64,000 bases of DNA from Ilex aquifolium (Eukaryota; Streptophyta; Magnoliopsida; Aquifoliales; Aquifoliaceae), in contig OX637391.1 in assembly GCA_951799425.1 (NCBI GenBank), positions 53,977,069-54,041,068 of the forward strand, written 5' to 3'. Position numbers and translations under genes: made by a program. Below are positions 1-41,500 of this stretch, one piece after another (position 1 is the first letter of the stretch; each line of letters starts with the position of its first letter). Under the pieces are notes generated by a model. That model ran no database searches, was not told the origin of the DNA, and saw nothing but the letters and a program-made list of their open reading frames with translations.

Positions 1-160
1 TCTCCTCGCCTTTTTCTCATATTACCTTGTTTGGAGGAGCTCCAGTACCGGCTGGACGAGCTCAGACTATGGCTTGGATGAGCTCTGCTTCTCTTCTCCG
101 AGCTATCGAGCTAAGCTCATTGCCTGAGCTCAGGTTTGGGCTTTATCTCAGGTATCATCA
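1..160 (-). repeat. 3' LTR of the Tat element (partial)
   Basis: These bases match 12031-12190 with five substitutions and end with the same CATCA terminus. They are the inner 160 bp of the 3' LTR (start of U3 in element orientation). The other roughly 570 bp lie left of the window. Confidence 0.95.
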
Positions 161-180
161 GTTGCCCCCCAGCCCTTGGT
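161..180 (-). other. polypurine tract of the Tat element
   Basis: Directly inside the 3' LTR the minus strand reads a purine-rich run, AGGGCTGGGGGGCAAC, abutting the LTR start TGATG. This is the expected position of the plus-strand priming site. Confidence 0.75.
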
Positions 181-834
181 TTAAGCGAGCTTGAGCAAGG
201 GCTGAGCTGCTTTTAAACTGAGCTAGATCTGCACGTGGCTGTCCCAGACTAGCACGTGACTGTAGCCCTTTGACGGTTTGTATCAATCATGGCTCTCCTC
301 GATTCCCGCACACGTTTCAGCCCACGTCTTTTAAGCTTTAAATGCTCAAACGGCTGCCTGAACCGCCTTTCTCCACTGTTCACCTTCTTCTCTGTTCTTC
401 TAACTTCTTGCCTCTGCGAATTTTTGACTTTCTGTCTCGAAGCTTCCTGATTCTTGCCCAAAATCGATTTTTCTGTGTTCGATTCGAAGACTCGTAGTGC
501 TTCCCCTCTTGATTTGGCCTCGGATTGTTGTTCGTTGCTCTCCCCCAACTAGGTACGCCATTTTTGCCATCTTTTCGCATCTTTCCTCGTTCTGGATCCC
601 TCGAGTTCGAGGTGGTTATTGCATTTTTGGTCTTTTCGGTTCTTTTATTGCTGGAATCGTGATCGTTGTCTATCCCCTCTTCCTCATTTTGTGGATTGGG
701 GCTCCATTGTGGGCTCCATTGTGCATATACTTGCTGTTGGGAGCTATTGTGCTGACCCTAGGGTCATTAGGGAGAGTTTGACTAGTATTCCCTCTCTCTA
801 TCGTTCATTTAATCTTCCCTTTTCTTGCTCAATC
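181..834 (+). promoter_or_regulatory. leader/promoter region of antisense gene 1
   Basis: This 650-bp stretch separates the polypurine tract from the first ATG of the antisense gene at 835. It holds no domain I recognise. If the antisense gene is transcribed, its promoter and 5' UTR must lie here or in the LTR. I see no strong TATA box; a weak TTTAAATG lies near 337. The assignment is by position only. Confidence 0.35.
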
Positions 835-3426
835 ATGTCTGCCTCTTCTGGCGCCACCCGTTCCTCAGTTTCCCTTCTAGGCAATCGGTCTGATGACACC
901 GATTTAGGGGACGTAGGCGACGAAATTGATAATTTTCCTGGTGTGGAGGCTGTGGAAGCTGAGGTCGGCACTGAGGAACCTCCTTCTACATCATCTCCCA
1001 TGCCCCCCAAAGGTAAGGGTAAGGTGAGTGGAGTTGGGGTTGATGAAAAAGCTTCATACCTGGGGGGCTGCCTTTAGGCATGCCGAGCTCGTGGGCTATA
1101 GTAGAGAGGCCCCTGCGTTAATGAGAGCTTACAAAGCTCGATACGGTTTTCCTCCTGGGGTTGAACCCTGGTGCCCAGATAAATCTATTTACTATGTAGA
1201 ACAAGTGCACAAGAGGGTCTGCTTCTTTCTCGCTGCCTTTGAGAATGGTCTTCGCTTTCCCCTGCATCATTTTATCAAGGCTATTCTGCAGCATTTTCAT
1301 GTATGCCCCTCCCAGCTCTCCCCCAATTTCTACGACATTATGGTAGGCCTCTTAGTCATCTTTAGGAAGCACAAGCTCGGGGTTCCTAGCATTTCTCTGC
1401 TTATGGAACTCTTCAACGTCAAGCTGACCTCTTCTGAAGGCTTTCTGTATATCTCTAAGCGAAATAATGTTAAGAAGATCATTACCGACCTCCCAACTTC
1501 TCACAAAGCGTGGAAAAAACACTTCTTTTTTATTGGGGGTTCCAACTGGGAGTATAATCCTGCGGATAAGACAGATACTCTTGGTATCCCTACGGCCTAG
1601 ACTAAACCAGAAAACTTGGGTGAGTCTTTATTCGAGCTGGCTGAGCTCTGATCTGGAACTTATGGGCCTCTCGCCTTTCTCTTACTTGCATATTTTTCTT
1701 TTTAGGTGGTCGGCCTGAGCTCAGTCCCGAAGATAAGAAGGTGCTAGTGAAGTTGGGAAAAATCAAGCCAGAGAGGTACGCCGATATTATTGAGCCTCGA
1801 AATCTGGTCGAGCTAGGTCTGAGTCCCCCTTCGGCAACCTTAGCTATTCCACTATCTGTTATAGACGCTGAAGAAGGTAATATCACTATCTCTTTCCTTC
1901 TCTTCCTCTTTCGTTTTCTTTTTATATCTCCTGATTCCATTCAGACCTTCCAGGTCCCTCTACCATGAAGTCTACTCCTGAAGAGCTCAAGGCTAAGGTT
2001 GAGGAGCTGATGAAAGATGGTAAATCCAGCAAGCGCAAGGCCCAGGCCAGCTCTGGGAGTGGTCCAATTACTCGGGCTAAAATCCCAAGATTGGAGATGC
2101 CTTCACCCTCCTCATCTGCTAAAGGAATGGCTCCCATCAAGGCACCGCCTTCCTCATCTGACACTCCTCAAATTACAGTCACCTCTTCCCCTCCAGAGGC
2201 CCAGCCTGCGTTGGTGCCAGCTCCAGTGGGAGATCAGGCTTCCCTTTCCTCCTCTGAGGTCGAGAAAGCTTTGGGACTGATCTCCGATCTCCAACCCAGA
2301 AATTTCTCATACAGTGCTTCTGGGAAGATGGTTGAAAAAGAGAGAAAATCTGAAGAAGATGAAGATTCTTTCTTTGATAACATGGACCTTGCCGCGGGAG
2401 CTGTTTCTTCTATTTTCTCTGAGTCTGATGTCCTGAAGGCTGCTTCTATGCCCCTTGAGGAATCCATCTCTTCAGCTCTTCAGGGAGCAGCTGTTGTAAG
2501 TGCTAGCACTTTTCCCTTTTTACCTACTTTTATTTCGTAGTTTCACGCAATTTGTTGAACTTCCTTTATATCCTCAGGCTGCCCTCCATGCGAAAGGTCT
2601 ACTGCACCGGATTCGGTCTCATGAGAGCTATGTTAAGGCTCTGAAGACGTATAAGGTCAAAGTTACTGAATTGTTCCTTGAAAACGAGGACCTCAAGGCT
2701 CAGGTGCAAAGCCTTAAAGAGCAAACAGTGAAGCAAGCCTCCGACCTCAAGCATACATTAACCGTCAAAGTCAGAGCTGAGGAAGGGGAAAAGAAAGCTC
2801 GAGATGAGCTACGGCTAGCTAAGGAGGATCTGCAGCTCAAGACTGAGACGTGGACCAAGGCTAGTCAAGAGGCTTTTGACGCCAAAAACTCCCTTATGCA
2901 GACAAGGCAGGATTACCTCACTCTTAGTGAGGCCAATGGCAAGCTCTGCGAGGAGCTTGAGGGGCAGAAAGACCTGGTCAAACAGAGGGATAGCGAAGTA
3001 GCCGAGCTAAAAGATGAGGCCACCACCTTGTGGGCTACTGGGTGGCTCGCCTTTAGGCGCAAGGCTATCAAAGCTTTTCCAGACCTTGACTTCAACTTCC
3101 CTATCCCTACCGAAGAAGAATTGGAAGGAACAGACTCTGATAACGAAGAAGAGGCCTTGGTCCCACCAGCTGAAGCCTTGAGTCAAAACGTACTTGCCAC
3201 TGGGATTTCTGGAGCTCTTGCCAGTGGGCCAGGCTCTCTTGCTGCATTCCCTGAGCTCCCAACTGCGACTCCTGCTGTCCCTGTTACTACACCGTTCTCA
3301 GCTGACCTGGTGACTGAGGCCCTTGTTCAAAATTCGGCATCCATTGAAGCTGAATCCCATGCGGCTGGCACCCCTGGAAGTTCTACTCTTTTGCCTACTG
3401 CTGAGGCCTCATCCACAGATACTTAG
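835..3426 (+). pseudogene. antisense gene 1 of the Tat element (plant 'gypsy-type transposon' N-domain plus coiled coil), spliced
   Basis: The gene runs opposite to gag-pol. Visible exons are 835-1619, 1706-1876, 1954-2495 and 2578-3426, each intron having GT-AG ends and phases that keep the frame. Exon 1 carries a short acidic Ser-rich head and then a domain with FENGLRFPL and CPSQLSPNFYDI. That matches the plant domain found in extra ORFs of Tat elements and often annotated as 'putative gypsy type transposon'. Exon 3 is Ser/Pro-rich and exon 4 encodes a long coiled coil (about 2660-3020) and an acidic, Ala/Pro-rich tail. Two lesions are visible: one extra G in the run at 1062-1067 breaks the frame, and a TAG at 1598-1600 lies just before the first donor. 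The molecular function of this protein family is unknown to me. Confidence 0.8.
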
Positions 3427-3461
3427 AGCTCTTTTTGATTTCATGTAATTCTATCTTTTTT

Positions 3462-3495
<34 letters not shown>

Positions 3496-4026
3496 TACTT
3501 CGAACTTGTGTTTTGGAATACAACCTTCATAAAGTGATTTCTGAATTCCGTTTTGGATTGTGATGTGCTGTGATTTTGATTTGAGACATAACTCACATGG
3601 TTCTGCTTTTCTGCGTTTTCCTCTCTTCTCTTCTCCTTGTAGCAGGGTCCTTGGAATTGAAGGTCTCAAAGACTTGCTATAGAGATGCTATGTTGCCAAC
3701 CAAGCTGAGCTCAAATATGAGGAATATTCTATTTAGGAGGGGACAGACTCATTTTCGGTTGTTTTGAGTGCATCGGGAGGGGTAATCTTGTGCTGAATTC
3801 TTTTTCCCGCCTTTTCCCAACTGCTTCCCATAATCGTAACCACCTTTATTAATTAGGAAACCAAAAAGACCACCGACTCCAATTCGCGTGACTCTTGGTT
3901 TCCTTAAAACTTACAATCTTCTTTAAGCCCCCTAACATCTGCTGAGTTTCTTTTCTCCTGCCAAAAATATTTCTGAGTTTTTTCTTGATCCTTCGTGGTT
4001 TCCCTCTGTTTTGACCATAATCTCTA
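3427..4026 (+). promoter_or_regulatory. spacer between the two antisense genes, with a long T tract
   Basis: These 600 bp lie between the stop of antisense gene 1 and the ATG of antisense gene 2. A T tract of about 30 bases (roughly 3465-3494) follows the first gene. No coding similarity is seen. It must hold the 3' end of gene 1 and, if gene 2 is transcribed separately, its promoter. Confidence 0.45.
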
Positions 4027-5111
4027 ATGGATGCCTCTATTTCTTCTCTGTTCAAGGAACGCACTTCCTTCGGAATCGAATGGGAGTGGCATTGTCGCTA
4101 CTTGTCTCCTTCGGCCTTAGAGCCCTCTGATTTGGTAGCCATCAAGAAATGATTTTTTCCTGATCTTGATTTGCCTCTGTGAGTCCCTACCCCCGATGAG
4201 TCCTGCAACTACCTTTCTCGAGGGGAAGTCTGCCTTTTTGAGGGTGCCATGGACATGGGACTTCGTCTTCCCATTCATCCGACTATTGGGCGAGTTCTTG
4301 CCTATTATGGGTTATGTCCCTCTCGCCTTTCTCCACGAGGATGGGCTGCTATGGTGAGTTTCTTCCTGTTCTGGCGCCTGTATGGTGGCGGTAGATTCCC
4401 TTTTGTTTCCGAGTTCCTTTACTTCTTCGAGATCGAGGAAGATGATGCCCCCTGCTTCAGCTTCTTTCGTTTGAGAAACTTTAGTTCACCCCCTTTGATT
4501 CTAGGCCTTCCTTCTAATCCTGAAGGGTGGTCTAAACGTTTTTTTTTTTACTTCTGGGGAGTCTTGGCGGTCCCCAGAGGTGCGTAGTCGTGATGCTAGG
4601 ATTCCACGGGCCTGGAAGAGCTTCTCTCGTATTGATAAGCTTGAGCCGAGCTCTCTTGAATATATTTGAAGGCATATTCTTATTATATTCTTGTGGCGCA
4701 GGTCCACCTGATCTGGATGTGCCAGAGATAACGAATATTGAGGAGTTGCGGCTTGTGGAGCCTATGACTTATTCTGAGTTGATGACGAATGAAAACCTTT
4801 ATTTGCTTGGGGCTGAGGCTACTGAATATGAATTTTCCTCCGTTCCTTACTCTTCCTGGACCTCTTTCTCTGAGTCTGACGAGGAAGGGGACTCTGATGA
4901 GGAAGGGGTCACTGGCGCGAGCTCGAAGAGGCGCAAGAGGGATGGCTCTTTCTCACCTGACTCTCTCTCCACTATTTTCCTTACCCCAGCAGGTCAGAAG
5001 CTTCTTGATGCGCTCTACAAGGCTGAACAAGAAAGGGATGAGCTGAAGGAGGAGAATGCTCGCCTGAAGGAGAAAGTTGTTGAGTTGAAGTCACAGCTTA
5101 AGAATGACTAG
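4027..5111 (+). pseudogene. antisense gene 2 of the Tat element, second copy of the same domain type
   Basis: From the ATG at 4027 one frame reads a protein whose middle part (MGLRLPIHPTIGRVLAYYG, then CPSRLSPRGW) aligns with FENGLRFPLHHFIKAI and CPSQLSPNFY of antisense gene 1. The two are related, probably tandemly duplicated, genes. After an intron ending at the AG near 4700, the last exon (about 4701-5111) encodes an acidic linker, a basic patch (SSKRRKR) and a short coiled coil rich in E, K and L ending KSQLKND. Lesions are in-frame TGA at 4150-4152 and 4180-4182 and a frame change at the T run near 4540-4549. The donor of the intron is uncertain. Confidence 0.72.
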
Positions 5112-5530
5112 GAGCTCTGGCCCTTGTATTTCCCTTTTTTTTTTTTGATTAATGTCAAACTTTGTTTCTCCTTGCATTTTCTTGAACGCATGTATTCTTG
5201 GATTCTTTGAATATCAGATCTTTCTTTTTGAATATGCATGTTAACATATGAGCTGAGGGGCTCATCTCTTATGAGCTAAGGAGGTCATTCTGAATTCTAT
5301 AAGCTTGTTTCAGCACATTTTTCGTGTTCAGAACACGAACGTGGATGAAAAACAGAAGATCATGTTTGCACTGACCTCAATCCCTGACTGGTTCCCCAGG
5401 TGATCTCCACTGCACTAGACATATTGGGGTCTTTGAGTGCGTAGGTAGCACACGAAGACCACTGGTCGTGGGGGAAAGACTGTTGGTGTCTCCAAGAAGA
5501 GCTCAGCTTGAACTTTAGAAGCTTTATCGT
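5112..5530. other. spacer between antisense gene 2 and the 55-bp repeat array
   Basis: No coding signal is seen. The stretch includes a T run after the gene and one degenerate precursor of the downstream repeat near 5249-5290 (an ATATGAGCTGAG-like motif). Confidence 0.5.
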
Positions 5531-5815
5531 TTGCATATGAGCTGAAGAGCTCATCTTGGATTTTATAAGCGGAGAAGCTTATCGTTTGTATATGAGCTGA
5601 AGAGCTCATCTTGGATTTTATAAGCTGAGAAACTTATCGTTTGTATATGAGCTGAAGAGCTTATCTGGAATTTTATAAGCTGAGAAGCTTATCTTTTGTA
5701 TATGAGCTGAAGAGCTCATCTCGAATTTCATAAGCTGAGAAGCTTATCTTTTGTATATGAGCTGAAGAGCTCATCTTGAATTTTATAAGCTGAGAAGCTT
5801 ATCTTTTGTATATGT
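5531..5815. repeat. 55-bp tandem repeat, five copies, each with two mini-hairpins
   Basis: The motif GAGCTGAAGAGCTC (or a one-base variant) starts at 5539, 5594, 5649, 5704 and 5759, an exact 55-bp period. Each unit has two short inverted repeats: GAGCT/AGCTC and ATAAGCT/AGCTTAT around three-base loops. The array lies between the 3' ends of the two convergent transcription units of the retrotransposon (gag-pol ending at 5910 on minus, antisense gene 2 ending at 5111 on plus). Confidence 0.95.
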
Positions 5816-5909
5816 ACTTGTTGCACATTCCTTTACTTTGGAGACCATATAAAGATGAATAAAAAACTCGTTTATTTTTATTAAAAAATAGCTCTATTAC
5901 AAGTAAAAC

Positions 5910-8900
5910 TTACTGAAAGAACTTCTTAAGATGTTCGGCATTCCACGAGTGAGGTAGGATCTTCTCTTCCTCTGTTTGTAGCTCGTAGTTTCCTGGTCTG
6001 ATTACCCTTGATACGATATAGGGTCCTTCCCAGTTGGGTCCCAGCTTCCCATGCGTGGGATCCTTCTTCGCAAGCAGAAGCCTCCTAAGTATCAAGTCTC
6101 CGGCCTTGAAACTTCTGTGCCTTACCTTCCTGTCGTAGTATCTTTCAGTTTTCCTTTGGTAAACTTGGACGCGATGCAGAGCTCTCTCTCTCTTTTCATC
6201 CAAGAGATCGAGATTCAATAGGAGAGACTCATCATTGTGCTCGGCATTTGCAAACTCCACCCTAGGTGATTGGAGTCCTACCTCGACAGGTGCCACTGCC
6301 TCGGTCCCAAAGGCCAAAGCAAACAGGATTTCCTGAGTTGCAGATTTGACGGTGGTCCTATAGGCCCACAATACCTCAGGGATGTACTCCACCCACTTGC
6401 CTTTTAGGTTTTCTAATTTGGTCTTCAGAGCTGTCTTTATGATTCTGATTGTGACCTCTGCTTGTCCATTGGATTAAGGATGTGCAGGAGCTGAGAAATA
6501 GTTCTTTATCCCGAGCTCAGCACAAAACCCTTTAAATTTTGAGTTGTCAAACTGTTTTCCATTGTCAGACACGACTGCTCTGGGAACCCCAAACCTGCAA
6601 ACTATCGATTTCCAAACGAAGTTTTGGACTTTTTGTTCGGTGATTGTGGCCAAAGATTCGACCTCTGCCCATTTGGTGAAGTAATCCACCCCTATGATAG
6701 CAAACTTGCATTGTCCCATACCGGTGGGAAGGGGTCCAAGGATGTCCAAACCCCACTGCTGAAAGGGCCATGGGTTTACCACCGAGGTTAGCAGCTCGAG
6801 TGGACAATGGGAAACATTGGCATGCTCTTGTCAAGGCTTGCATTTTTTGACCAAATCGGTGGCATCTTTGGGCATGGTCGGCCAATAATATCCCTGCCTT
6901 AGTGTTTTTCCTGCCAAGGCCCAAACTCCGATGTGATTGTCACATATTCCCTCATGTACTTCTCTGAGTATATAATTGACGTCTTCATCTCCCACGCATT
7001 TAAGGAGAGGTGCTGAGAATCCTCACTTGTACAGGTTTCCTTGCAGTAAAGAAAATCTGGCTGACCTGGTTTTTAGCTTGGAGGCCTCTTTAGCATCGCC
7101 TGGCAAGGTTCCTTTCTGCAGGTATTCTATGATGGGGTCCATCCAATTCGGCTGAGTTACGATCGGTAGCATTTCCTCCCTTTCAATACTTACTGAAGGC
7201 TTTGGAAGGTGCTCCACTGGTATTAGCCTATCCAAGTCTTCTTGTGAGGCAGTTGCTAACCTCGCCAACGCATCTGCACGTGAATTCTCTGCTCTGGGCA
7301 CGTGTCTGACCTTAACCTGCACAAACTTCTTCATTAGTTCTCGTACCTTTCTGAGGTAAAGGATCATTTTTTTGCCTCTCGCTTCGTAGGATTCCTCTAT
7401 CTATTTTATCACTAGTTAAGAGTCACTGCAGATTTCCAGCTGTTCTGCTTCCATAGAATGAGCAAGATTGAGCCCAGCGATGACAGCTTCATATTCTGCC
7501 TTGTTATTTGAAACCTTAAACCCAAATCTAAGGGCATACTCGACATCTATTCCTTCTGGAGAGGTCAAGATCATACATGCACCGCTTCCCTGAGCATTGG
7601 CAACACCATCCACTGAAAGCCTCCATATTGGGAGATCTGGTACTAAACATGTGGTCTCCATAGGTGCTGCTACTGTGAACTCTGCGATGAAATCCGCCAA
7701 AATTTGCCCTTTAATGGCAGTCCTTGGTTTATATCTGATATCATACTCACTGAGCTCTATGGCCCATTTAACCAACCTCCCCGAAGACTCTGGCTTATGT
7801 AGCACTTGTTTCAACGGCTGGTCTGTTGGAACCTCGATAGTATGAGCCTAGAAATAGGGTCTTAGTCTCCTAGCTGTTGTAACCAAAGCTAGAACGAGTT
7901 TTTTCATATTTGGATATCTCTCATCTGCCCCCCTCAGAGCTCTGCTGCAGTAATAGACTGGTTGCTGAACTCTGTCTCGCTCCCTGACCAACGCTGCGCT
8001 TGTTGAAAAATCTGAAACTGCCAAGTAGAGAGTAAGGACTTCCCCTTCTAAATGGCTCACCAAAACAGGAGGGGAGCTCATATAATTTTTCAAGGTTTCG
8101 AATGCTTCTTCGCACTTGGTATCCCACTGGAATACCTTCTTCAAGACTTGAAAGAATGATTGGCACTTATCGCTTGACCTGGACACAAAACGACTCAAGG
8201 CAGCTATTCTACCTGTCAGGCGTTGTACCTCCCTTGTGTTGGATGGTGATTGCATATCTAACACCGCCCTAACCTTCTCTGGGTTAGCTTCAATTCCCCG
8301 GCTGCTAACTATAAAACCAAGAAACTTTCCTGCCGAGACCCCGAATGCACACTTCGCAGGGTTAAGCTTCATCTTGTATTCCTTTAGGATCTAGAATGAT
8401 TCGGCTAGGTGTTCGATGTGGAGCTCTGTCTTTAGTGACTTTACTAACATGTCGTCGATGTAAACTTCCATGGATGCACCTATCTGCTTTTGGAACATCC
8501 TATTCACCAATCACTGGTAAGTGGCTCCAGCATTCTTCAACCCGAAAAGCATGACCTGATAACAGTATGTTCCCTGTTCAATTACAAATGAGGTCTTCTC
8601 TTGGTCACTGGGATCCATCCTGATCTGGTTATAACCTGAGAAGGCGTCCATGAAGCTAAGGAGCTCGTGTCCGGCTGTGGCGTCCACTATTAAGTCGATC
8701 CGAGGTAAGGGAAAGCTATCCTTGGGGCATGCTCGGTTGAGATCAGTGAAGTCGATGCACAGTCGCCACTTACTATTATTTTTTTTGACAAGAACCACAT
8801 TTACTAGCCAGGTGGGGTAGTCAACCTCCCTGATGGCCTTTGCGTGGAGGAGTTTGTCGACCTCTTCGTTGATTGCTTTTTGGCGTTCTGGGACGAAACT

Positions 8901-9251
8901 TCTTCGCTTCTGTTTGATAGGTTTGCAGGTAGGATTCACGCTGAGCTTATGCGTGATGATCGAGGGGTCGATACCTTCCATATCTTCTTGTTTCCATGCA
9001 AACACTCCTATATTTTCCTTCAAGAACTGGATGAGGAGATTTTTGACCTCTCTGCTCAGCTTGGACCCTATATAAACGAAGTGTTCTGGTTCCTTGTCCA
9101 GCTGAACTGGCTCCAGCTCTTCTAAGGGCATTGGTCTCGTTTCCAGCTCATCCCTCATGTCGAGTTCATCGAGTTGGATGTTCTCAACTTCTTTCATTTT
9201 TACAAACGCCATATAGCATTCTCTTGTTATACGCTGGTCTCCTTGGACCAC
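5910..9251 (-). pseudogene. pol: pol of the Tat element: reverse transcriptase, two RNase H domains, integrase
   Basis: Reverse transcriptase (9251 to about 8370) shows LCIDFTDLNRACPKDSFPLP, FMDAFSGYNQIRM and a YIDD box at 8451-8462. A decayed RNase H remnant (LYLAVSDFSTSAALV...YYCSRAL) follows to about 7850. A second RNase H, the archaeal-like type, has SVDGVANAQGSGA near 7610 and NKAEYEAVIAGL. Integrase shows the HEGICDNH / KKC zinc finger, WGLDILGP (first Asp at 6744-6746), VSDNGKQF (second Asp at 6564-6566) and the Glu of NGQAE 36 codons later (D-35-E), then the NWEGPYIV motif near the C-terminus. Premature stops lie at 8511-8513, 8391-8393, 7848-7850, 7416-7418, 7401-7403, 7023-7025, 6831-6833 and 6474-6476. 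The last of these separates the catalytic Asp and Glu of integrase, so this copy cannot encode an active pol. Confidence 0.93.
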
Positions 9252-11266
9252 TCCGACTCCATTTTCAGTAGAAATTTAACGACCAAGTGATAAGCAGACG
9301 GGATTGCCCTCATAGAATTAAGGGAAGGCCTTCCAAGCAGAATGTTGTATGCTGAGGGTGCATCAACCACTAGGAATTTTACGGTCGTGGTGGCTTGGCA
9401 AGGTGACTCCCCTAGGGTAAGCACGAGTTGGATTGAACCCAGGGGGAGCACCCTTTCCCCAGAGAATCCCAGCAAGTGAGTATTTACAGGTTCGAGTCTT
9501 TCCTTTCCTATTTCCATTTTGTCGAAGGCAGGTGCAAAAATGATGTTTGCCGAGCTCCCGTTATCGATCAGAACTCGCTGAACAATCCTATTAGCCACCA
9601 CGGCTCTTACCACCAATGGATCATCATGGGGGTAATGGCATCCCTCCAAATCGGAATCGAAAAAAGTGATAGCTGTGTCTAAGCGTGGTGTTTTGAACAC
9701 AGCATGCACTTCGAGAGCTTCTTCGGCTCTGATTCGTCGAAGGTATGCTTTCCTGGCTGAGCTGGACTCTCCGCCTCCCGCAAATCCTCCAGATATTACT
9801 CTGATCTCACCTAAAGGCTGCTGATGTGGTGCAGGTGCCTGCTGTTGAGGTGGCAGCGGTGGAAGAGCTCGATTCTGGTTGTCATGGGCCACAAAGCGAC
9901 GCAACTGTCCTCGCTGGATTAGGAACTCGATCTCCTTCTTTAACTGAATGCAGTCGTCAGTATGGTGACCATGGTCCCTGTGGTAGTCACAGTACTTTGC
10001 GGGGTCTCTTTTTGCTGGATCAGCCTTCATCCGAGATGGCCACCTTAGGAACTTCTTGTTTTGGACCTCATACAGGACTTGGGATACAGTGGCTGTGAGT
10101 AGGGTGAATCGTTGAGGTCCGTACCTGGGCTGCAGCTCAGGCTGCATGGGGCCCAAGCGGTCTCTAACGTTTCCTCTTCTCTTCGGCGAGCGATCTCTAT
10201 CCCTCCTTGGAGACCTTTCTCGCCTCTTTTCCTTCTTGGGACTTCAGTCCCTTCTCTTTTCTTCTTTTTCCTTCTCCTTTCGTGAGGATGTACTCCCTAC
10301 TTTGGAAAGGAGTGCTTCTTCACCGTTTATATACTTTTCTGCCTTGGCTAACACCTCGGCCATGCTTGCTTGGGGATTATTAGATACAGAGAACATTAGA
10401 TCCTTTGATTGGACTCCTAATCCTGCAATGAAGGCAGTTATGGCAAACTTTTCGTCTGGAATATCCACCTTTAGAGATTCTGAATTGAACCTCTGTACAT
10501 AAGATCGCAGGTTTTCCTCGGGCCTCTGCTTGATATTTAATAGATAATAGCTCGGCTTCCTGTAGATCTGAGCTCCAATGAAGTGAGATACAAAGGAAAT
10601 GGAGAGTTCCTTGAAAGAAGAGATCGAGGCTGCGGGGAGCCTATTGAACCATGCCAAGGCTAACCCCTTCAAGGTGATGACGAAGGCCCTGCACCGCACA
10701 GGGTCCTGGTATCCGTGCAGCTCCATTTGATTTTTGTAGGTGTTGAGGTGATCCACAGGGTCTTTGGTCCCATCAAAGACCTCTATTTGTGGCACTCTGA
10801 ACTTCGGAGGAAGGGAGAAATGCAGTACCCCGGGGGTGAACGGGGATTCAGTTTGTTACACCAAGGCATCCATTGTTACGAGGGTTTTGACCTTTACTCC
10901 CTCTCTCATGTTGCTGAGCTCTTGCTGGATATCCTTGAAGCGGTGCTCCCAGTATTGCTCCATTCTCTCCTGTTGGAAAGGCAGGAAATCATTCCTCTCC
11001 AACCCCTCATTCTGACTTTGCGATTCTTCATTTTCTCCCCTTCTTGGAGGCTGATGAGATGCCTGACTACTTTGTCCTCCTTTGTTTGCTTCCCTGAGGG
11101 GGTCAAGGCACTGCCGATCCCTAAGAGGAAAATTATTCGGACCTTGTCGGGGTGGTTGCGTCTGCTGAGGGCCTTGTAAGAGCTTCAAGAGCTCCTCATT
11201 TTGTTGGAGTAAGCGTTGATTAATCAGACGAAGGGCGTCCAGTTCATTGTTAGGGGGAGGATCCAC
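9227..11266 (-). pseudogene. gag: gag and protease of the Tat element
   Basis: From 11266 the product starts with a Gln-rich N-terminus. The retrotransposon gag core follows at about 10820-10250, containing LNTYKNQMELHG and GLALAWFNRLP. A Lys/Arg-rich linker comes next, then a degenerate zinc knuckle YCDYHRDHGHHTDDC (about 9993-9950). The aspartic protease has its active site in VLIDNGSSANIIF (Asp codon at 9563-9565). In-frame stops are at 10856-10858 (TAA) and 10244-10246 (TGA). A frameshift near 9270-9280, just after the protease, breaks the joint with reverse transcriptase. In Tat elements gag-pro-pol is normally one polyprotein processed by this protease. Confidence 0.92.
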
Positions 11267-11443
11267 CGTAAGAGGGTCGTTTTCAGCGGTAGGAATGAAA
11301 TCCTAAAGGTTTTCTGGTTGCCTCCCGCTGGTGACCTCCTGGGGATTTTGTGCCCTTTGAGAATTCATCTGACTTTTACTCATGTTTCGCGTAGAGACCA
11401 TCAATCACTGAAAAATCAGTATATTTGTAACAAGAACTGTCGT

Positions 11444-11460
11444 TCCCACAGACGGCGCCA
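11444..11460 (-). other. primer-binding site of the Tat element
   Basis: Three bases inside the 5' LTR the minus strand reads TGGCGCCGTCTGTGGGA. The first nine bases complement the CCA end of plant tRNA-Asp; later bases diverge from it, so the primer tRNA is only suggested. Confidence 0.75.
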
Positions 11461-11463
11461 AAC

Positions 11464-12190
11464 TGATGGTGTTTATCTACGTGAATGGGCTATGGACCAG
11501 GATTACTTCGTATGAATGATATGCGTGGAGTTGAGTGCGGTGTCTGAGCTGCAAGGCTCGCGTATAACAATGTTGGTTGATGCTTAAGGGAATTGAGGAA
11601 AGGGGTGGTAACACAACAGAATTATAGTGGTTCACCGGCCTGAGCTCCGCTAGTCCACTCTGCCATGGAGTCTCTAGCTCCTCTCTTTTTTATTGACGGT
11701 GTTGAATGTATTACAGTATGCTAATGAGGGAATTAGGGTTCCTGGTGGCTCTATTGCCCTCTCCTTCGATGAAGGCCCATCCTCCATTTTATAGCCTCTT
11801 CCTTACCTCTAATCCGATATTGCCTCCTATGATCCAGGGATCTTCTCCCATCTCTCTCTCTCTTATCCCTGAATTCCGTATGGCTGGCTTTGATGGTCTA
11901 TATCCCGAAATCTTTGCCTTCTACCATGGGATCTTTCTACATATTCGAAAAAGATCTTGGTTAGTTGAGCTTTTTACGCCTAGGTTCCAATTTGGCTCCT
12001 ACTTTGGAGGTGTCCTCTGTCTCCTCGCTGTCTCCTCGCCTTTTTCTCCTATTACCTTGTTTGGAGGAGCTCCAGTACCGGCTGGACGAGCTCAGACTAT
12101 GGCTTGGATGAGCTCTGCTTCTCTTCTCCGAACTATCGAGCTGAGCTCATTGCCTGAGCTCAGGTTTGGGGTTTATCTTAGGTATCATCA
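11464..12190 (-). repeat. 5' LTR of the Tat element (727 bp)
   Basis: The ends are the inverted repeat TGATG / CATCA and the inner boundary abuts the primer-binding site. On the minus strand a TATA box (TATAAAAT, 11786-11793) and about 100 bp downstream an AATAAA (near 11690-11695) mark plausible R-region limits. Because the element shares the direction of SDIR1, this AATAAA could cut SDIR1 transcripts short. Confidence 0.93.
11786..11793 (-). promoter_or_regulatory. TATA box of the Tat LTR promoter
   Basis: TATAAAAT on the minus strand, in the middle of the LTR as expected for the U3 promoter driving gag-pol. Confidence 0.6.
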
Positions 12191-12667
12191 TAAACAAAAA
12201 GACAAGCCCATAAAATTGAATATAAAATTGAACTTGTAAAAACTATTTTAGCTCACTTCTTCTCAAGGGAAGATCTGAAACTACTTCAGGATTGTTGGCA
12301 GAGTTATCACAGAATACTTAAGTGGTGAATGCATTAAGAAGAAGAAAACTAGTTCATATCCATTCAAACATAAGCCACATGTACTTACGTCTACAGATTT
12401 AGTTATTTGTAGCACAGCTATTCAATGAGTATCTGCTAGCATATATCGAACGAAATGCTCCCCCCCCCCCCAAAAAAAAAAAAAAAAAAAAAAGAAGACT
12501 AGACTAGCAATAGTTGGATCACATAATAGGGCCTTGTACAGTTGGACGGATACTTTGTGGTGCTTATGTAAAAGAAATGTCAATATGCAACTACTTTCTA
12601 CTGCCAGAAAATGAATGTTCAAATAGAGGAGATAAGAGTAAAAATCACTGCAAGAGAGAGAAGCAAC
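12191..12667 (-). other. SDIR1 last intron, part right of the retrotransposon
   Basis: The donor GT at 12667-12666 follows the exon ending in LPCLHQ. No sequence resembling the expected last exon (FHA-x-C, PWL, CPVC) occurs between here and the LTR end. A C run followed by an A run lies at about 12460-12494. Confidence 0.85.
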
Positions 12668-14638
12668 CTGATGCAAGCATGGCAAGCTACGGATAAGTTC
12701 TCCCACATTAACTTGCTCCAAGCAAACACTGCAAGTCAGATCATCATCTGAGGCTTTTATGCCCCCATTGACAGTCTCTTGCTTCTTCTGCTTAAATTAA
12801 AAAAGGAAGGGAAAGAGCAAATAATGGGACTTTCCAGTTATGAAACAACAAAGTAGGAAGCAAAATAAAAGGGCATGTCACATGCAAATACATAATTTTG
12901 AGTCTTGTGGCACAGTGGAACAACTGCCAGACATCCCAAAACTGCTCTGCACAGCACTGAAAGACGCAATTCAGTTGTCCCACTAGTGTTGTCTAAGGGC
13001 CACCAGCAAATAAGTACCACATGGATGCCTCATCGGCTATGAATATATAACAATAATCTACATAAATACATATGATGCAATTCAAAGTAGGGTAATGCAT
13101 ACGACACAATGCAACCAAGTTATAAAATAAGGCAAACATAGTATTATCTCTCAGAGCCCCATGTATCTAGAATCAGACTTGACACAGAGACATGTTCCAA
13201 ATATTGCATAAAAAATCTCTACATGCAATAGACTGGAAAAAGTTTCTTCTACATTTGGGTAACATATTCCGTCAATTCGTTTACAATAAGCCAGCTTGTG
13301 TGGTACACCCCACTGGCACAACCATCGAAGGTATAAAAATCTGGGCCATACCAAGTGAGTCATAGTACCACTCAATGCACTGCTGGAAATAGAATGATCA
13401 ATTTCTTTGATTCTGCCTACTTATGGTGATTAATATATTTCACATAGATAGGGGGCAGAATATTATTATCTACTTGCTTAAACTTGCAACGAGCCTATCA
13501 TCCTTCTTTTTTCTTCCCTCTGTTGATACAAATAAGAACTTAAGATGCAACAAGTGAAAGGATGACCTCAAACATAACTTCAAATCACTTGAGCTAGTGG
13601 AACTAGCTTTCATTCAACATTCAACCTTAAGTAAAAGTTGCAATGATTCCTTACAGAACATCTCAAGAATAGAACATCTGACAATCCATCCAAATATAGA
13701 TCTGTGGTTTCAAAGATGATGAATAACTAAAAAAGCTGACTTGCTCGGAACTTCTCTATTACGTATGATTCCAATGAATTAATGAGACAGCTACTATTTC
13801 TACCACAGAACCCTAATCGATACCTCAATTTTAACAGCACTTACATTGCAAATATTGGAACTTTTAGTCTATCGGCTCCACCTCAACTAAAATACATAAT
13901 ATAGTTCAACAAGTCATTAAACATAGAAAACAGTAACATCACACATTCAATATGAAAGAATTTTGGTGCAGAATGACCTTTCAACTTGTCATAAAAGCGT
14001 GGTCATAATTTGAAATTAAACCCATAACAGGTAAACAGAACTTGTGTGATGCAGACCAATCATGCCTCACGCACACGCTAGGAAGAAAAATATATGCGTA
14101 ATTGACTTTATCCGAATGATAGAGACGAAATAACTTAGAAATAGCTTTTAGACAAATAGCTTTGCTGAAACATCATTCGATAGTGCACTCATTTTAGAGC
14201 ACTAATAGAGGAAGAAAGAATACCTCAGCTACCGCTGAAGACGAAGCCTGGTGTATTGGTGAGCCAGTGCTGTTAAGAAAACCAGCATAAAGAAACATTA
14301 AGCCCAAGGAGATTGTACACAACTGTATAGGTGCATTATATATTGATTCCTAAACCAAGACAGAACAACTATACACTCCAATAGCTGCTTAGAAAATATT
14401 ATGTTTAGATTACATCCAGAGCTTATGGGACAACTCCTGTAATTTTAAGATTCACTCTACCTTCTTAACTTTTTGTTCAGTTGTCACATGAAAATTACAC
14501 TTCCTGCAAGCTCCTCGAGGTTTTGATTAATCCAAAGAGATCAAAAAGAAGTTAAGCAAATTGTGCACCAATGAGACACTATGCATGCAGCATGGTAAGG
14601 AGCAAATACATAGACCAACAGAATGAAATGATTTTGAG

Positions 14639-14695
<57 letters not shown>

Positions 14696-17031
14696 AGCCT
14701 GCATGCGCACGTGAGAGGCCATGATAAATATGGACTCGGTACAACCATTGTGCATGGTATGCCTTTGCTCTAAGAGGAAAATGTGTGCATGAAGTTTTTG
14801 CCCGGGCAATTACACTTCATTGTTTTGGTTCCCCTAGGTTTTCTTTACAGTGTCACATTAGGGAACAAAAATTAAAATTCCACAATAAGGCCAAAAAAAA
14901 TGGTTTTCTATTTCAAAAAGTACAAAAAAACTGAATCTTGATCGATGCAAGCTTGCATGTCAAGTAGGTTGATTGAAGTATACTTTTTCTTGCAGAAAAG
15001 CTTCAAAATTTCTAATAATATAATCATCTAAACAGAAATAAACACCGCAATAATCAATTTAAGAGAGAGAATAAATTCATGGGTGACAAAAGGATTAAGA
15101 TGGGGATAAGAAAAATGGCCTATGCTGCAAATGGAATTAACCAGACAAAAAGTGGACTGAAATGGACAACAAACTGAAAAACAAGTCAACATTTTAAGCT
15201 TCCAAAAGTTGAAGAAAAACAATTCATAATTGTCTGCAATTCAATGATGATGTGAGGTACAATCCAGCATAAAAAAAGAATAGAAATGCACTCAACCCTG
15301 CTGCATAGCTTTGCAGGAACAAATGAAAGCACTCCAAAAAATACACGTAACCAGCAAACCCTCATAACTAACCTTTGAGGGCCAGCAACCTTGTATTTAT
15401 GAACTGGAAGAGAATTTATCTCTTCCTCAGTCATTGAAGTAGCTGTGGGAACATTATCGGCATCCAGTGCTCTCAAAGTTTCATAATCTGCATGTAAAAG
15501 TAGATTACAATTACAAACTCCTTTCTAACTGTACATGCTAGGGACGTTCAAACCAAAATCAATTGGCAATGGGTGGTTAGGTAACGCCACAAGGCTAATG
15601 TAGTAGTTTGAAAGATGTTATTTTATCATCGTGGAGTAAGCGCTAACAATCCTCTGCACATGCAATCCCACTCAGACATAGAGAGATAAACCAAAAACGA
15701 AAAACAAATTCGACATAACAAGTGCATGTATGACACGAACAAAAGGGGAATCAATTGAAAAATCGACGAAATCAAAACTTATTCAAAATCTCTAAAAGCC
15801 TCACTTTTGACCATGTTACAACATATTGGAACACCCTAAAAAGCAACGATACAAATATGAATACAGGAACTATACAATATGGACACATCAATACAGCAAA
15901 ACCTCAAATATTAGGATACAGATCGGGAAAGGGTACGTCTATAATAAAACATATTTATTATTCTTATTTTGTTTGCGATTGTTTAATCATAATTGTTAGT
16001 AAATTCTTTAATAGAAATTAAAAAATAAACGATTTTTACTTTCAAAGAAGCATAGATTGTCTTAGGGCACTATCTATCTGGTAATCTTATCCTGCGCCAC
16101 AATAGAACGAGATCTCACACCTCCCAAAGAAAAATATTTTGACACTATCTGTCTGGTAGTCAACAAACAAGCATGATTAACAAATTAGGTAAAAGAGAAC
16201 AAGATTTTATATCCATAATCTGGGTAAACTGCACAAGATAAGATTTCCATACATCATACCTAAGTCATCAAATTCCCGGTCAAGAAGCGCAAGTTGGAGT
16301 CTAAGACCTTGCAATCGACCTCTTGTTGCAAGTGTTATGGATGGTGGCATATGCAACCGCAACTCAGTGTGACCGAGAAGGCCACTTGCTGCAACTGCAT
16401 GAGCTTGGGCCTGAGCTTGCAGTTGCTGACAAGTTGCATACATCCTAAGGCTTGTCGCCATCAAAAAGACACCAAGTACCAGCCAGAGCTACAAACATAA
16501 ATTTGAGCAAAAGCCCGTTAAATTGCTTATATAATAAATACTATTCCACAATATTAGCTAGAAGATTGATATGCAGGAATGTCATAATTGTTAAGAGAAT
16601 ACCAGAAAATTAGGTGACATTTGGTGTGAGTTTAGGATCATGAACAGCAACAGAACTGTTAAATCAAACAAAAAATTACAAGTTGCAGTATATGGTAACA
16701 CAAAAATTTTGTAACAAAAGCACAATAAAGACCAAAAGTTAAGGAAGTACTGCAATACTAGCAAACCTGTGACTAGAAAAGCAAGTGAGTTGGTATTAAC
16801 TGGTCGAGCTGCATGAACACGCTGATGGAAAGCAGAAACATAACATACATATTATTAGATTAACTGAAAGACTATGCAAACGAATTCCGGAGCATCGTAG
16901 ACTGCAAACACAAACAATATCATAAGTAATGTTACAGAAGACTAGGAAAATACCACTGCACGCCTCTCAGGAATAAATCCTGGAAATCCGGATTCTACAT
17001 CTGCTCTAGTCCCTCGGAAAACAAAGCTCAT
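12668..17031 (-). CDS. SDIR1: SDIR1-type RING-H2 E3 ubiquitin ligase, final exon missing from window
   Basis: Arabidopsis SDIR1 is a RING-H2 E3 ligase of the endomembrane system that promotes abscisic acid, salt and drought responses. Coding exons here are 17031-16954 (MSFVFRGTRADVESGF), 16821-16767, 16655-16603, 16488-16260 (LRMYATCQQLQAQAQA), 15487-15373 (TEEEINSLPVHKYKV), 14269-14224 and 12787-12668 (LTCSVCLEQVNVGELIRSL). All have GT-AG borders and matching phases. Two membrane segments are visible (NSLAFLVTVLLLFMIL and FLLWLVLGVFLMA). The exons sum to 232 codons; the Arabidopsis protein has 273, and the 41 lacking residues are exactly the end after LPCLHQ, including the last four zinc ligands of the RING. 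That exon is either beyond the retrotransposon at left or lost. The last visible exon has a tandem AAGCAG acceptor (12788-12793), allowing one optional Gln. Confidence 0.93.
12788..14223 (-). other. SDIR1 intron between exons TGSPIHQ and KKQETV
   Basis: A 1.4-kb AT-rich intron. I see no other gene or clear transposon in it. Confidence 0.75.
14638..14697. repeat. compound CT/CA microsatellite in SDIR1 intron
   Basis: A run of about 19 CT units is followed by (AC)n on the plus strand, inside the intron 14270-15372. The rest of that intron shows nothing recognisable. Confidence 0.95.
15800..16100. repeat. decayed GATACR-type repeat relic in SDIR1 intron
   Basis: AACACCCTAAAAAGCAACGA followed by scattered ATAC motifs, GGGTACGTCTATAA and an AT-rich tail resembles, in the same order, 17260-17420 in the first intron. 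It seems to be an older, diverged copy of that repeat. Confidence 0.45.
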
Positions 17032-17125: not shown

Positions 17126-20100
17126 TGCAAAGTTAAAAAAGAAGAAAGTGAGTAAGAGATCAGGAATGTAGCTCCCTATAGCATCATATCTGAAGCTAGT
17201 AATCAGGGATATAGATACGAGATACGGGTACGATACGAATACGGCAATACGGAAAAACCCTAAAAAATAGAATACGGATACGACTAAAATACATCTATAA
17301 AAATGTATATCTTATATTTTTACTATTATGTAATGACTTGATAACTATAATTTTAATGATTCTTCAATAATAATAAAAAACATTAACAATTTTTATTTTA
17401 AAAAATTCATATATTGTCACACTATAGTACATCTACAAAATGAACGTGACTAATTAAAGGAATAAAAACCAATATTTAACTAGATTATTTGTTTAGAAAT
17501 GTTTGTTGCTAAGATTATAGTGTAATCAACTTATTTATACTCTTTAAACATGTGATAATGAATAATTCTTGGAAAACATCCATGTGTCTTCAAAGTCATA
17601 TGGATTGTTGTTGTGTATTGCATTATATGTGAAAATCGAAAGGAAGGGATAAAGATTAAAACTAAAAATTACACATACTTCTATATATATAGAAGTATTC
17701 CCAAAGTATCCATATATTTTATTTATTTTTTAATATGTTTGGTGTGTATACGATACGTATCATCAAGTATTCGACGAGTATCGTATCCGAGATGAATACG
17801 TCGACCTTAACGAAGTATCCGTGCTTCATATATCTGAAGTTAAGAGAAATTGATAAGTGATAATCTACAAGAGACATCTTTCCCTGTAAATATGAAGAAG
17901 TACACATTGTAGCTGCAGAATCATTTGCAATGCCCATTAACTACACCCTAGAGAGCTCCAAAAATTCAAACTCTCTCCCATTTTCATCCATTGAGCTAAA
18001 TCTTAAAAGTGAAATGGCTATAAAAACTCAAAACAAAATCTGAAACAAAAAAGGACAGTTGGCAACCCTACTCAAGGAAATGTGCACATAACAGACAGGA
18101 GTAAATAATGAACATAATAATCATTAGCAATGTTGTAGCCCTTCCCCTTAGTTTTCCACGGTAAAATCTTTCAATAAGACTCATAAATAGAAAAGTTAAA
18201 ATCATATACCTAGACGCCCCAGACCCAAGACTTAATCGACAGTGATAGTATATCTTTAAAAAACTTAATTGCAATAAAAAAGGATGAACATGCAATACAC
18301 TACGCACAACCGATCCCACTATCCTCTTGACATTCTATAAACCAACAATGAGTTTTAATTTCACCAACTCAATTGTCATTTCAATTTACTTTTGGGAACT
18401 CTTGCTCAGGACTTGGGACATAGGAGGCAGCACACCACCTAATACTTATTAACTGAATCATCAGCCAATACTCTTTTTCTCACTAATCCAACCAGGACTT
18501 GTTAATGGTGTATTGCTAGTCTTTGTAGCACACACTTAAATTGAACAAACCCGTGCACACACCCACACACTGTAGAAGTGGAAAAATTGCAATATTTATC
18601 AATGAGGTCAATTTTTCTATGCTATAAATGGGGTAATAAAAAGGTCAATGCAAAATATTTTTTAAAAATGGATGCCTCTATAATGACATGGGTACGTTGA
18701 AATCAAACACAACTAAGAGCTTCAACGAAAGAAAATAAATTCAAGAGCATTTAAGAGGGTATCCTAATCATCAGTTCCACTGAGAATGTGTTGGGCAATA
18801 AGAGCGTTCAGGCAAATAAGACATGCCATGGTGTGTCAACCAAAGGTACTTGATTCATTTCAAAGAGTCTATGACTCTGTTTGACATGATTTGGAGGACA
18901 TTCAATACCTTTGATAGCTACAAAAGGATCACTAAAATGGCAGTATACAGTATATTAACATTAATACTTTATAAAGCATATTACTCAAAAAAGTAGAAAG
19001 TCACATAATGAGAGACTCTGGCCAATATTTAAGCAACCATTCACATTAATTCAGACTTAATGCAACAAAAAAAATTAGGAAAAAAAGGGTGGTGGTTCAA
19101 TGCACAAGACTCCCAAAATCACATACTTGTCCAATAGGTAGGGTTCGCTATTTTGACTACGTTTTCCACGAAATTGGACATTCGGTAATGCACAACCACC
19201 CTGCCGGTGGACAAGCAACAGTACGATTCAGGGATTTGGACATTGTAGGAATGCATATACCAAAAAATCAAGTTGCAAGGGAACCTAATCGTGGGTTGCA
19301 GCTCTCAAACCAAGTCTTACTATCAATGTTCACTACAGTGCTGTTGCGGATCAGCTAAACAAAACTTTACCAAGTAGATACTAGATTCTCATAACCAGTA
19401 TCTCAGGCCCATTCCAAATTTGGATGAACACTTAAAAATTGTCAAGCAATGAAGACAGCAACATAATCTCATAAACATTCACCAATATTTCAAGATATTT
19501 AAAAAATGATTCATTCCTATCAATCTTTGCAAAACCGCAAGGAAGACAAGATTAACTTTTTCCACAATAATAACCACCCAAAGATTACCATATGTCACTT
19601 TCAGTCATTCTTTATCTCCTGGATCTTGTTCCATTGACCATAACAATTAATACATTTTATCCATCAAGAAAACAAGTTACACATTTGATTATCATATTCT
19701 TAAAAAACAAAACGAATAATACCATGACCCAGGAAGCCGAGTCATATATTGAATTTTTGCTCATTTGGACATCCCTGATTTAGAGGCATCAATGTACAAT
19801 GAAAAGCAGCATAAATAAACCACTCCGGAGGAAAGGGAAGGCATACCAACCACATTGTTCCAGTATTTTACAATTAACCATAAAAGAGGGCTTTTATTTC
19901 CTGAGATGAGATCAAAGCTACACTGGCGGTAAAAGGGAAAAAAAATTCTATTATTTTTTGCAACAAATTCAAAAGTGCCCTTGTAGCTCACTTAATAAAA
20001 CTGTCACTTAATTCTAGATTGAGACCAATACAAACAGGCAAAAATACCGCCACAGTTGCAAAAATTTCACCTATTTCAAATCATGATTTAAACAAGTACT

Positions 20101-20359
20101 CCCAGCTATATCCCCCCAAGTTTTCTCAGGTAACAAACAAAACAAAATTTTCCCAAGGAAAATAAATTATCATACAATCTTCAACAGATCATTCAAAGAT
20201 AAGCCATCCCCTCTTACATAACTTGGTTTACAAAATTAATACAGAAAACCCTAATTTCTGTAGTTTCAACCCGCAATACTTACAAGCTGATACAACTTTT
20301 TGCGCGTAGATATACACATAATTCAAGATGAGAGGGAGAGAGAGAGGGGGATCACTTAC
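17126..20359 (-). other. SDIR1 5' UTR intron (about 3.2 kb)
   Basis: The donor GTAAGTG begins at 20359 and the acceptor CAG ends at 17125. Apart from the foldback element it holds no recognised gene. A stretch at 19089-19370 is less AT-rich than its surroundings and starts with a segment like the end of some plant SINEs, but this is too weak to call. Confidence 0.7.
17205..17830. repeat. foldback element with GATACG-rich arms, in SDIR1 5' UTR intron
   Basis: The left arm (about 17210-17265) repeats GATACGAGATACGGGTACGA-like motifs. The right arm (about 17745-17815) contains the same motifs in inverse orientation (GTATCGTATCC, CGTATC). The 480-bp centre is very AT-rich. The structure suggests a nonautonomous foldback element; I cannot place it in a superfamily. 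Confidence 0.55.
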
Positions 20360-38573: not shown

Positions 38574-41500
38574 CTATAAACTGATATGTAGCTTTGGTGT
38601 AATTAGGAGCCCTGAAGAGAAGGTCTGCATCTTGGGACAGTTTTCCAATTCCACTTTTGTTAAGGATGGCCATTCCAAAGTCTGATTTCCCAAGTAGAAA
38701 CTCTTGAGGTTTGGTAGATGTACAAGTTCAAGAGTGTGAACATTAGGGAACACAAGTTTTCCTCCAGAATCTTCTCCTTGTTCTAGGACCTCTTCCACTA
38801 AATCACATTCTCGTACAACGAGCTCTCTCAAATTGTGTAGCATCGGGAGTACTTTGGATGGTACAACTTCTAACAAATTGTAACATTCACACACAAGTAG
38901 ATATTCTAGTTGATTAAAGCAATCTCCTGAAAGAGTGTATTGCCATATCTTTTTCATGTTATCTAGTTTATGAAGATTCAACTTCTGTAGGGCGTGAAGT
39001 ACAACCTGCCAATGTACGTTATATTAACACATGAATGTTCATAGTTAGACAAATACTATAAAATTCAAGGAGAGAAAAGGAACTAGAAATTCACTTTTGC
39101 TTGATTAAAATATAGGATAAGAAGAATCATCAATAGTAATTAAAAACTTTGCCACCTTGAACAATTCAAACTTTCTTCACCAGTCACGTGGGCATTTTCA
39201 CAGTCATGTGTTGGGCTTGAGAAACAAGGAAGTAAAACAAAACATTGACCCAAACAAAAGAAATAAAAAATAGATAACTAGATATTACTAACAAAACAAT
39301 TGCCATAACTTTTTGTTTGCATGCGTCAGTTTCAATTTCTATAAAAAAAAATTGAAAAAGAGTATCTGGCTTCGAGTTTGGGTCCAATCAGGCTCAACTC
39401 AATTTCTCACTACTTTAATTTGAATTTACTACGAGTAAGAAAAAGTGAAATGAGTATTTTTCACAAACAGGTGGTGAGCGAAGTAGATACGAACTAGGGA
39501 CCACAATTAGAATTGGTTACGTGTCACATTTGCAATGCTGAAAATTGATCGTCTTATGGAACTGGTAAATCAACATAGATATATGATAAATTTTCTCCTA
39601 GGTTTACCCTTTGTATACATAAGTAGTTTAGAAAGAGAGAGAGAGAAAGAGAGTGAGCGAGAGAGAGAGAGCATGTACCTTTTCATTGAAAAATGGTTGT
39701 ATGGTGACGCTAGAGTTGCTTTCTTGATCCATTTGTCCCTCCAACCCTTCTTCACTTGCTTCTTTTGACCTTTTTGTGCTTGAACCAACAAATGTTTGCA
39801 TCATGGGACATTTTTCAATCACCAAATCTTGCAAAGAGTGGAACTCTAAAGTACAATTCCCTTGGTAGAAACTTGTGAGTTCTGGCAATTGAGAGAGGCG
39901 AAGGTAAGATAATTTAGGGAACACAATTGTGTCAACGACCACTGCATCTTCCTCTCTTTCGGTTGCTATTATCTCTTTCATCATGTCGCATTCTTCTAAC
40001 TTAAGCCATTGAAGTTGAATAAGAAGTTTCGATGCGGTAAAAGAGAGAAGATATCTCCGACATTTGCATCCCCGGATAGTAAGATTTGTGAGATTCTGGA
40101 AGTCAACAGATTCATGGAAAACCTTGTTCCACCATATATCCTTCAAGCTTGGTAAACCCAACAATATAAAATTCTTTATCCTTGGTAGTGTTACTAAAGT
40201 TGCATTATGTCCTTCACATAGGTCCTCCAACAAATCACAATTTGAAACGGATAAATCTACCAAATTCTGTAACAATTGTACCAAACTGGATGGAAAAATT
40301 GTGATTAGGTTTTCACAGTTGCCTATTGACAGTTCAGTCAATCTGTTGAAGTTCCCGGCAGGAAGCAATTGTTCATGCCATATCTTTTCCATTTTGTGCA
40401 GTTCATCGAGATACAAGCTCTCCAATGCTGGAAATACAACCTGCATGCGAAATTACATTATTCGTCAATCTTAATAAATAAAAAAAAAAACTTCTCATTT
40501 GTCTTGTTAGCATTTTTACAGTTATCTGGCGGGCTTGAGGAAGAAGGACATACAAGCACCAAGTGACCCAAACAAAGGAAATAAGAAATAAAGAAATAGA
40601 CATTACTAATAAAGAAATATCCTCATAATGAGTTGTGAGAAATGAAGAAAAATATTGTTGACTTCAATTCTACAAAAACGCTTTTTAGTAACACATTTCA
40701 TGGTCACATACCATTCCATCGAACAACAGAGGTTCATGTGCTCGGATATGAGGACTGCTATCTGAAGCCGAACTATTTGTTTGGCCAAAAAAACTCACGA
40801 TGTTTGGTAGATTAACAAGCGTCAACTTTTTCAAGTTGTGTAAAACAATTTCATCCTCTTGTGCCGCTGCTCCTTCCGCATTGATTGCAAGTATCGCTTC
40901 CATATTGTTGGAGTCGTATATCTCTAGGATTTGGAGCTGCCCAAGATCTCCTCCTATATATTGCTGAAACTGAAAGATGCATTCCATTTTGTCACACGCT
41001 AATACTCTTACACTCCTTAGGCTAGAAAGTCGTGCTTGGCCAGTGGGATCCTCCCACAAATTTATTAACTCAGGTAAGTCGTGTAGAGTCAACTCACGTA
41101 GTTCACAAAAAGATGTAGGTGGGAGATGGCCATGGCATATCTGTCTCAACTCTTGCATGTTTCTGAGATATAATATCTCCACCGCAGGAAAAACACAACG
41201 TGGCATCCTCTCCTTGGTGTCAACTAGATATTTAATCTTACCACCACATCTATCAACTCTCAAAGCCTTCAGATTTGAAAATCCATCTATTCTAAAATCA
41301 TTGAGAACAGTCTCCACATCCTCCAATTCCTCTAGGTCCAATGTTTCTGCTTTTTTTAACAGCATATTGATCCCACCACCTTCTTGAATATTACTTTGAC
41401 ACCGCACGAGTTTCAAGACCCTTGACCCTACACGTGACAAAAGCCAAATGTACGGCAAATAGGACTCCGAGCCTATACCAATGTGGTATTCAATCAACTG

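Follow-up and report, generated by a model that had tools for sequence, protein, structure and literature searches.

The window analysed here is a 64,000-nucleotide stretch of the Ilex aquifolium genome (C1:53977069-54041068); negative window positions denote its left flank, position 0 being the last base of flank L008. It carries an SDIR1 gene, a plant stress-hormone gene that encodes a predicted RING-H2 E3 ligase. With Arabidopsis SDIR1 as the tblastn query, matches were found in the 12668..17031 region of the window, and SDIR1 residues 232-273 were matched in the left flank at window -731 to -856 (E 1.5e-20). SDIR1 is read from the minus strand, and thus its 3' end is directed past the left window edge. 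The flanking DNA examined comprised 60 kb leftward of the window, together with 20 kb surrounding a second SDIR1 match on contig C18; whole-genome searches covered 800 Mb in 103 contigs. The gene model consists of the following features:

12668..17031, minus strand: SDIR1 coding exons 1-7 (tblastn, gt-ag boundaries, translation)
17031-16954, 16821-16767, 16655-16603 and 16488-16260, minus strand: exons 1-4 (78, 55, 53 and 229 bp)
15487-15373, 14269-14224 and 12790-12668, minus strand: exons 5-7 (115, 46 and 123 bp)
1..12667, minus strand: the part of intron 7 inside the window, continuing to window -733
window -734 to -859 (L008 9266-9141), minus strand: exon 8 (tblastn, splice sites, translation)

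The placement of exon 6 and of the precise junctions was made by eye and checked via the open frame; the introns start with gt and end with ag, and the G of the exon 7 donor is at 12667. Exons 1-7 give 233 codons with the exon 7 acceptor ttaag|CAG. This acceptor is a tandem NAGNAG, so 232 codons are also allowed; an earlier note on this DNA, made from the window alone, had counted seven coding exons, which stand, and 232 codons, which is the alternative count. The first base of exon 8 lies 734 bp left of the window, after the acceptor ttattttgcag, and the exon codes 41 codons plus a stop that ends at window -859. Its content is exactly the 41 residues, including the last four zinc ligands, that the earlier note had listed as missing. 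The leftward extension suggested there as a check thus recovers the exon, and the reading that the gene lacks its last exon is rejected: exon 8 continues the frame and brings a splice acceptor, the four remaining ligands and a stop codon. It was missed because the window ends inside the 3' LTR of a retrotransposon. The idea of a broken gene arose from where the window happens to stop, and is corrected here.

The complete model has eight exons and codes 274 amino acids in a frame open from end to end; stops and frameshifts are absent from its 274 codons, and all splice sites are preserved. The protein is colinear with AtSDIR1 over its full length, the conserved N-terminal region included, with 216 identical aligned residues, and like the Arabidopsis protein it has a complete C3H2C3 RING and ends in DASYMV. 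The RING ligands are divided between two exons (C, C, C, H in exon 7; H, C, C, C in exon 8), and the first of the exon 8 ligands presumably corresponds to H234 of AtSDIR1. In Pfam, the 274 aa product shows the complete RING-H2 with eight ligands (zf-RING_2, residues 211-253, E 1.4e-13), and the 233 aa product without exon 8 gives only zf-RING_11 below the cut-off (20.8 vs 27 bits). Eight exons and seven introns are also reported for wheat TaSDIR1-4A (PMC7501821).

Most of intron 7 is occupied by a Ty3/gypsy retrotransposon on the same strand as SDIR1, 12,757 bp long and extending to window -566 (L008 9434). Its features are as follows:

1..12190, minus strand: the part of the element inside the window, apparently of the Retand type (LTR pair, target-site duplication, ORFs, Pfam)
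11464..12190, minus strand: 5' LTR (727 bp); on the gene's strand it carries TATAAA at 11793 and AATAAA at 11694
window -566 to 160 (1..160 in the window), minus strand: 3' LTR, 727 bp, without AATAAA
12191..12195 and window -571 to -567, no strand: the two copies of the target-site duplication TAAAC
11434..11463, minus strand: putative primer-binding-site region, TGGCGCC..., 3 nt past the 5' LTR
10244..10795, minus strand: gag ORF fragment (Retrotrans_gag, PF03732)
8511..9251, minus strand: reverse transcriptase ORF fragment (RVT_1, PF00078)
7416..8372, minus strand: RNase H ORF fragments (RT_RNaseH_2, RT_RNaseH and RVT_3; PF17919, PF17917 and PF13456)
5910..6392, minus strand: last pol-strand ORF of at least 120 aa ahead of the pol-3'LTR region, integrase-like by eye only and with no Pfam match
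5517..5814, no strand: tandem repeat within the pol-3'LTR region, 55-bp unit, 5.4 copies
1028..1600, plus strand: antisense ORF with Transposase_28 (PF04195, E 2.6e-8)

Both LTRs start with TG and end with CA, and TAAAC stands on either side of the element as a 5-bp target-site duplication. The LTR pair, these duplications and the exon map bear out the earlier note in placing a same-strand retrotransposon in the last SDIR1 intron, where it stands between the exons coding either half of the RING; the TATAAA and AATAAA of the 5' LTR likewise agree with its claim of LTR signals on the gene's strand. A Pfam scan of 10 of the 14 ORFs in the element region placed five at or above the curated cut-off, left four without a match and gave one below the cut-off (ORF 4590-5111, DivIC only). 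The gag, reverse transcriptase and RNase H domains lie in separate ORFs on the gene's strand; thus gag-pol is interrupted. About 5.7 kb separate the final pol-strand ORF (5910) from the 3' LTR (160); this long pol-3'LTR region, together with its antisense Transposase_28 ORF and tandem repeats, suggests a member of the Retand lineage. In Retand elements this region measures 2,933-6,566 bp, tandem repeats occur in about half, and 97% of clusters carry antisense TRP28 ORFs (PMC11963269). The element here differs from these in its interrupted gag-pol and in LTRs that are 3.9% apart, and thus it is not a recently active copy.

The two LTRs show 28 differences (17 transitions and 11 transversions; K2P 0.0396), which gives an insertion age of about 1.5, 2.8, 5.0 or 7.9 million years at assumed rates of 1.3e-8, 7e-9, 4e-9 or 2.5e-9 per site per year. 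Derived states were judged against 19 other LTRs of the family, taken from 41 match rows of which two were the element's own LTRs; 14 of the 28 differences are derived in the 5' LTR and 11 in the 3' LTR, with three unassigned. The family is large, with 2647 first-look candidates, of which 40 were scored. Identity between the element's LTRs and the other scored family LTRs reaches 87% at most, against 96% between its own two; hence the element belongs to a subfamily without a close relative among those scored. AATAAA is found in all 19 of the other family LTRs compared, and it is missing from the 3' LTR of the SDIR1 intron copy. The TATAAA of its 5' LTR is peculiar to this copy, the 19 others having TATAAGAAA at that position.

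Intron 7 measures 13,401 bp and is in phase 0; a working protein does therefore need splicing over more than 12 kb, as the earlier note had stated. Without the element and one copy of the target-site duplication, 639 bp remain, with the insertion point 472 bp into the intron. The corresponding intron of the C18 paralogue is 691 bp long, against 13.4 kb here. A global alignment of the element-free intron with the C18 intron scores 533.5, while 200 single-base shuffles of the comparison gave a mean of 244.9 (s.d. 13.4, maximum 280.5), and BLAST aligns the two in two long pieces at 65% and 59% identity. We also considered whether the last exon might be hidden in the 477 bp (12191-12667) between the exon 7 donor and the 5' LTR. 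The whole SDIR1 protein had no minus-strand match there at E 10 or better, and the RING query gave only a chance six-residue match (E 27); a hidden exon in these 477 bp is thus ruled out, in line with what the earlier note had said of this segment. Beside the 5' LTR, at 12460-12493, a C run is followed by an A run (T then G on the gene strand). These runs have no match in the C18 intron; the frame of a read-through tail would depend on them, and their length may be variable.

This is a structurally complete SDIR1 orthologue, and we consider it probable that its Retand-type intronic insertion is tolerated and spliced out so that normal SDIR1 is made, with some transcripts ending in the LTR. We propose the following course. 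A single Retand-type Ty3/gypsy insertion in the gene's orientation enlarged the last intron from about 0.64 to 13.4 kb; RNA polymerase would transcribe through the element into exon 8; and splicing would remove the 13.4 kb intron, giving the normal 274 aa protein. By analogy with RPP7 and COPIA-R7, some transcripts probably terminate in the 5' LTR with its retained AATAAA. In that case, the main effect of such premature ends would lie in the supply of full-length mRNA, which would be reduced or depend on chromatin state, and not in a new protein. In Arabidopsis RPP7, an intronic Copia element provides a proximal polyadenylation site in its 5' LTR, which EDM2 suppresses via H3K9me2 (PMC7529245). 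Both loci have an intragenic LTR retrotransposon with a polyadenylation signal in the first LTR that the transcript meets; however, RPP7 has a Copia element in intron 1 with proximal 3' ends shown, whereas SDIR1 here has a Gypsy element in the last intron with an AATAAA motif only. Intronic heterochromatin is present in more than 10% of rice genes; many of them are transcribed, and such genes are under the control of OsIBM2 (PMC7145194). SDIR1 here resembles them in having a long intron that bears a transposable element in a gene that can stay functional, but the rice cases show a promoter-proximal bias and here the last intron is affected. The locus is an ordinary, though well-defined, case of a transposon-stretched intron. 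Searches of the literature on SDIR1 with retrotransposon or transposable element and intron returned no insertion in SDIR1, as far as titles and abstract openings tell. With its C18 paralogue the locus forms a natural SDIR1 pair in which only one copy bears the 12.8 kb intronic element, and in which one could measure what it costs to splice across a same-strand LTR.

It is possible, but in our judgement unlikely, that most transcripts are instead cut and polyadenylated at the 5' LTR, leaving a membrane-anchored product with half a RING that is either inert or dominant-negative. The 5' LTR is in sense orientation and has kept the AATAAA that all 19 compared family LTRs share; this hexamer, however, is a weak predictor in plants. 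Read-through from exon 7 would add 81 intron-coded residues to the 233, with the stop preceding the LTR, and such a product would be without the histidine changed in H234Y, a substitution that abolishes E3 activity in AtSDIR1 (PMC7501821). Transcripts of RPP7 end in the COPIA-R7 5' LTR on loss of EDM2 (PMC7529245). Against this, exon 8, its acceptor and the entire frame are intact, transcription occurs in many rice genes whose introns are heterochromatic (PMC7145194), and the dominant-negative protein raised in the earlier note is purely hypothetical here.

A second alternative, which we regard as improbable, holds that the C1 copy is silent and becoming a pseudogene, the C18 copy being the working SDIR1. 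A large insertion can attract silencing marks, and an intact C18 copy is present: it has 274 open codons in the same 8-exon structure, so that the genome would retain an SDIR1 even if the C1 locus were lost. As one outcome that would refute its reading, the earlier note had named an intact second locus with the copy here silent and without a last exon; the former exists, but exon 8 is present here. Against this alternative, the C1 frame is free of stops, frameshifts and splice-site losses. The two proteins have 252 residues in common and 22 differences, and the whole frame gives dN 0.041 and dS 0.342 (NG86); exon 8 alone gives dN 0.047 and a poorly measured dS of 0.74. With AtSDIR1 as the outgroup, 7 of the 22 differences are derived in C1, 7 in C18 and 8 are unassigned; given these equal counts, relaxed constraint is not apparent for the C1 copy overall. 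In residues 209-274 the derived changes are 3 of 7 for C1 and 1 of 7 for C18, too few to weigh. Both dN/dS and the derived-residue pattern mostly reflect the time before the insertion. Since then, about 2.5 neutral changes would be expected in the 126 bp of exon 8, and its frame was kept in 85% of 20,000 selection-free simulations (substitutions only); its integrity thus barely tests function after the insertion and is no proof of splicing. A retrocopy of a spliced SDIR1 transcript would have shown splicing, and none was seen in the whole genome, where exon 4 matches only three places: SDIR1 here, C18 (92%) and C20 (70%). The C20 match was considered as a third intact SDIR1 and rejected, as only broken exon 4 pieces lie within the 10 kb examined; C20:21333030-21333207 is a decayed exon 4 relic, with no further SDIR1 exon matched in that span.

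Conservation before the coding region also speaks against a decaying C1 copy, as four stretches upstream of the ATG are conserved in both C1 and C18. One region, 19803-20341, is 67% identical to the C18 upstream region over 597 columns; it lies about 3 kb ahead of the ATG and is likely a promoter or 5' UTR exon that has been conserved. Nearer to the ATG, at 17210-17260 and 17746-17800, inverted GATACG-rich stretches are seen by eye and may bound a small transposon.

A more speculative idea, to which we give very little probability, is that the chromatin of the element acts as a switch: relaxed silencing, for example under stress, would lead to ends in the 5' LTR and a membrane-anchored half-RING SDIR1 antagonising the C18 SDIR1, and a silenced element would allow full-length SDIR1. 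If true, the element would tie ABA sensitivity to transposon silencing. Finally, a misassembly or a minor allele can practically be dismissed as the source of the insertion: the insertion rests on a single assembly, but the target-site duplications match, the LTR pair has 28 differences, window 1-13000 and L008 contain zero N, and a whole-genome search with the right flank (12191-12700) returned the SDIR1 locus here plus two pieces on C18 and four matches 34-41 bp long, with no element-free second allele in the assembly.

Elsewhere in the window, an uninterrupted 990-codon NLR disease-resistance gene lies on the minus strand at 40685-43657, with an NB-ARC domain (E 3.1e-49) and RPS2-like LRRs. 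It is followed at 39628-40446 (minus strand) by an ORF that is LRR-like by eye and may continue it.
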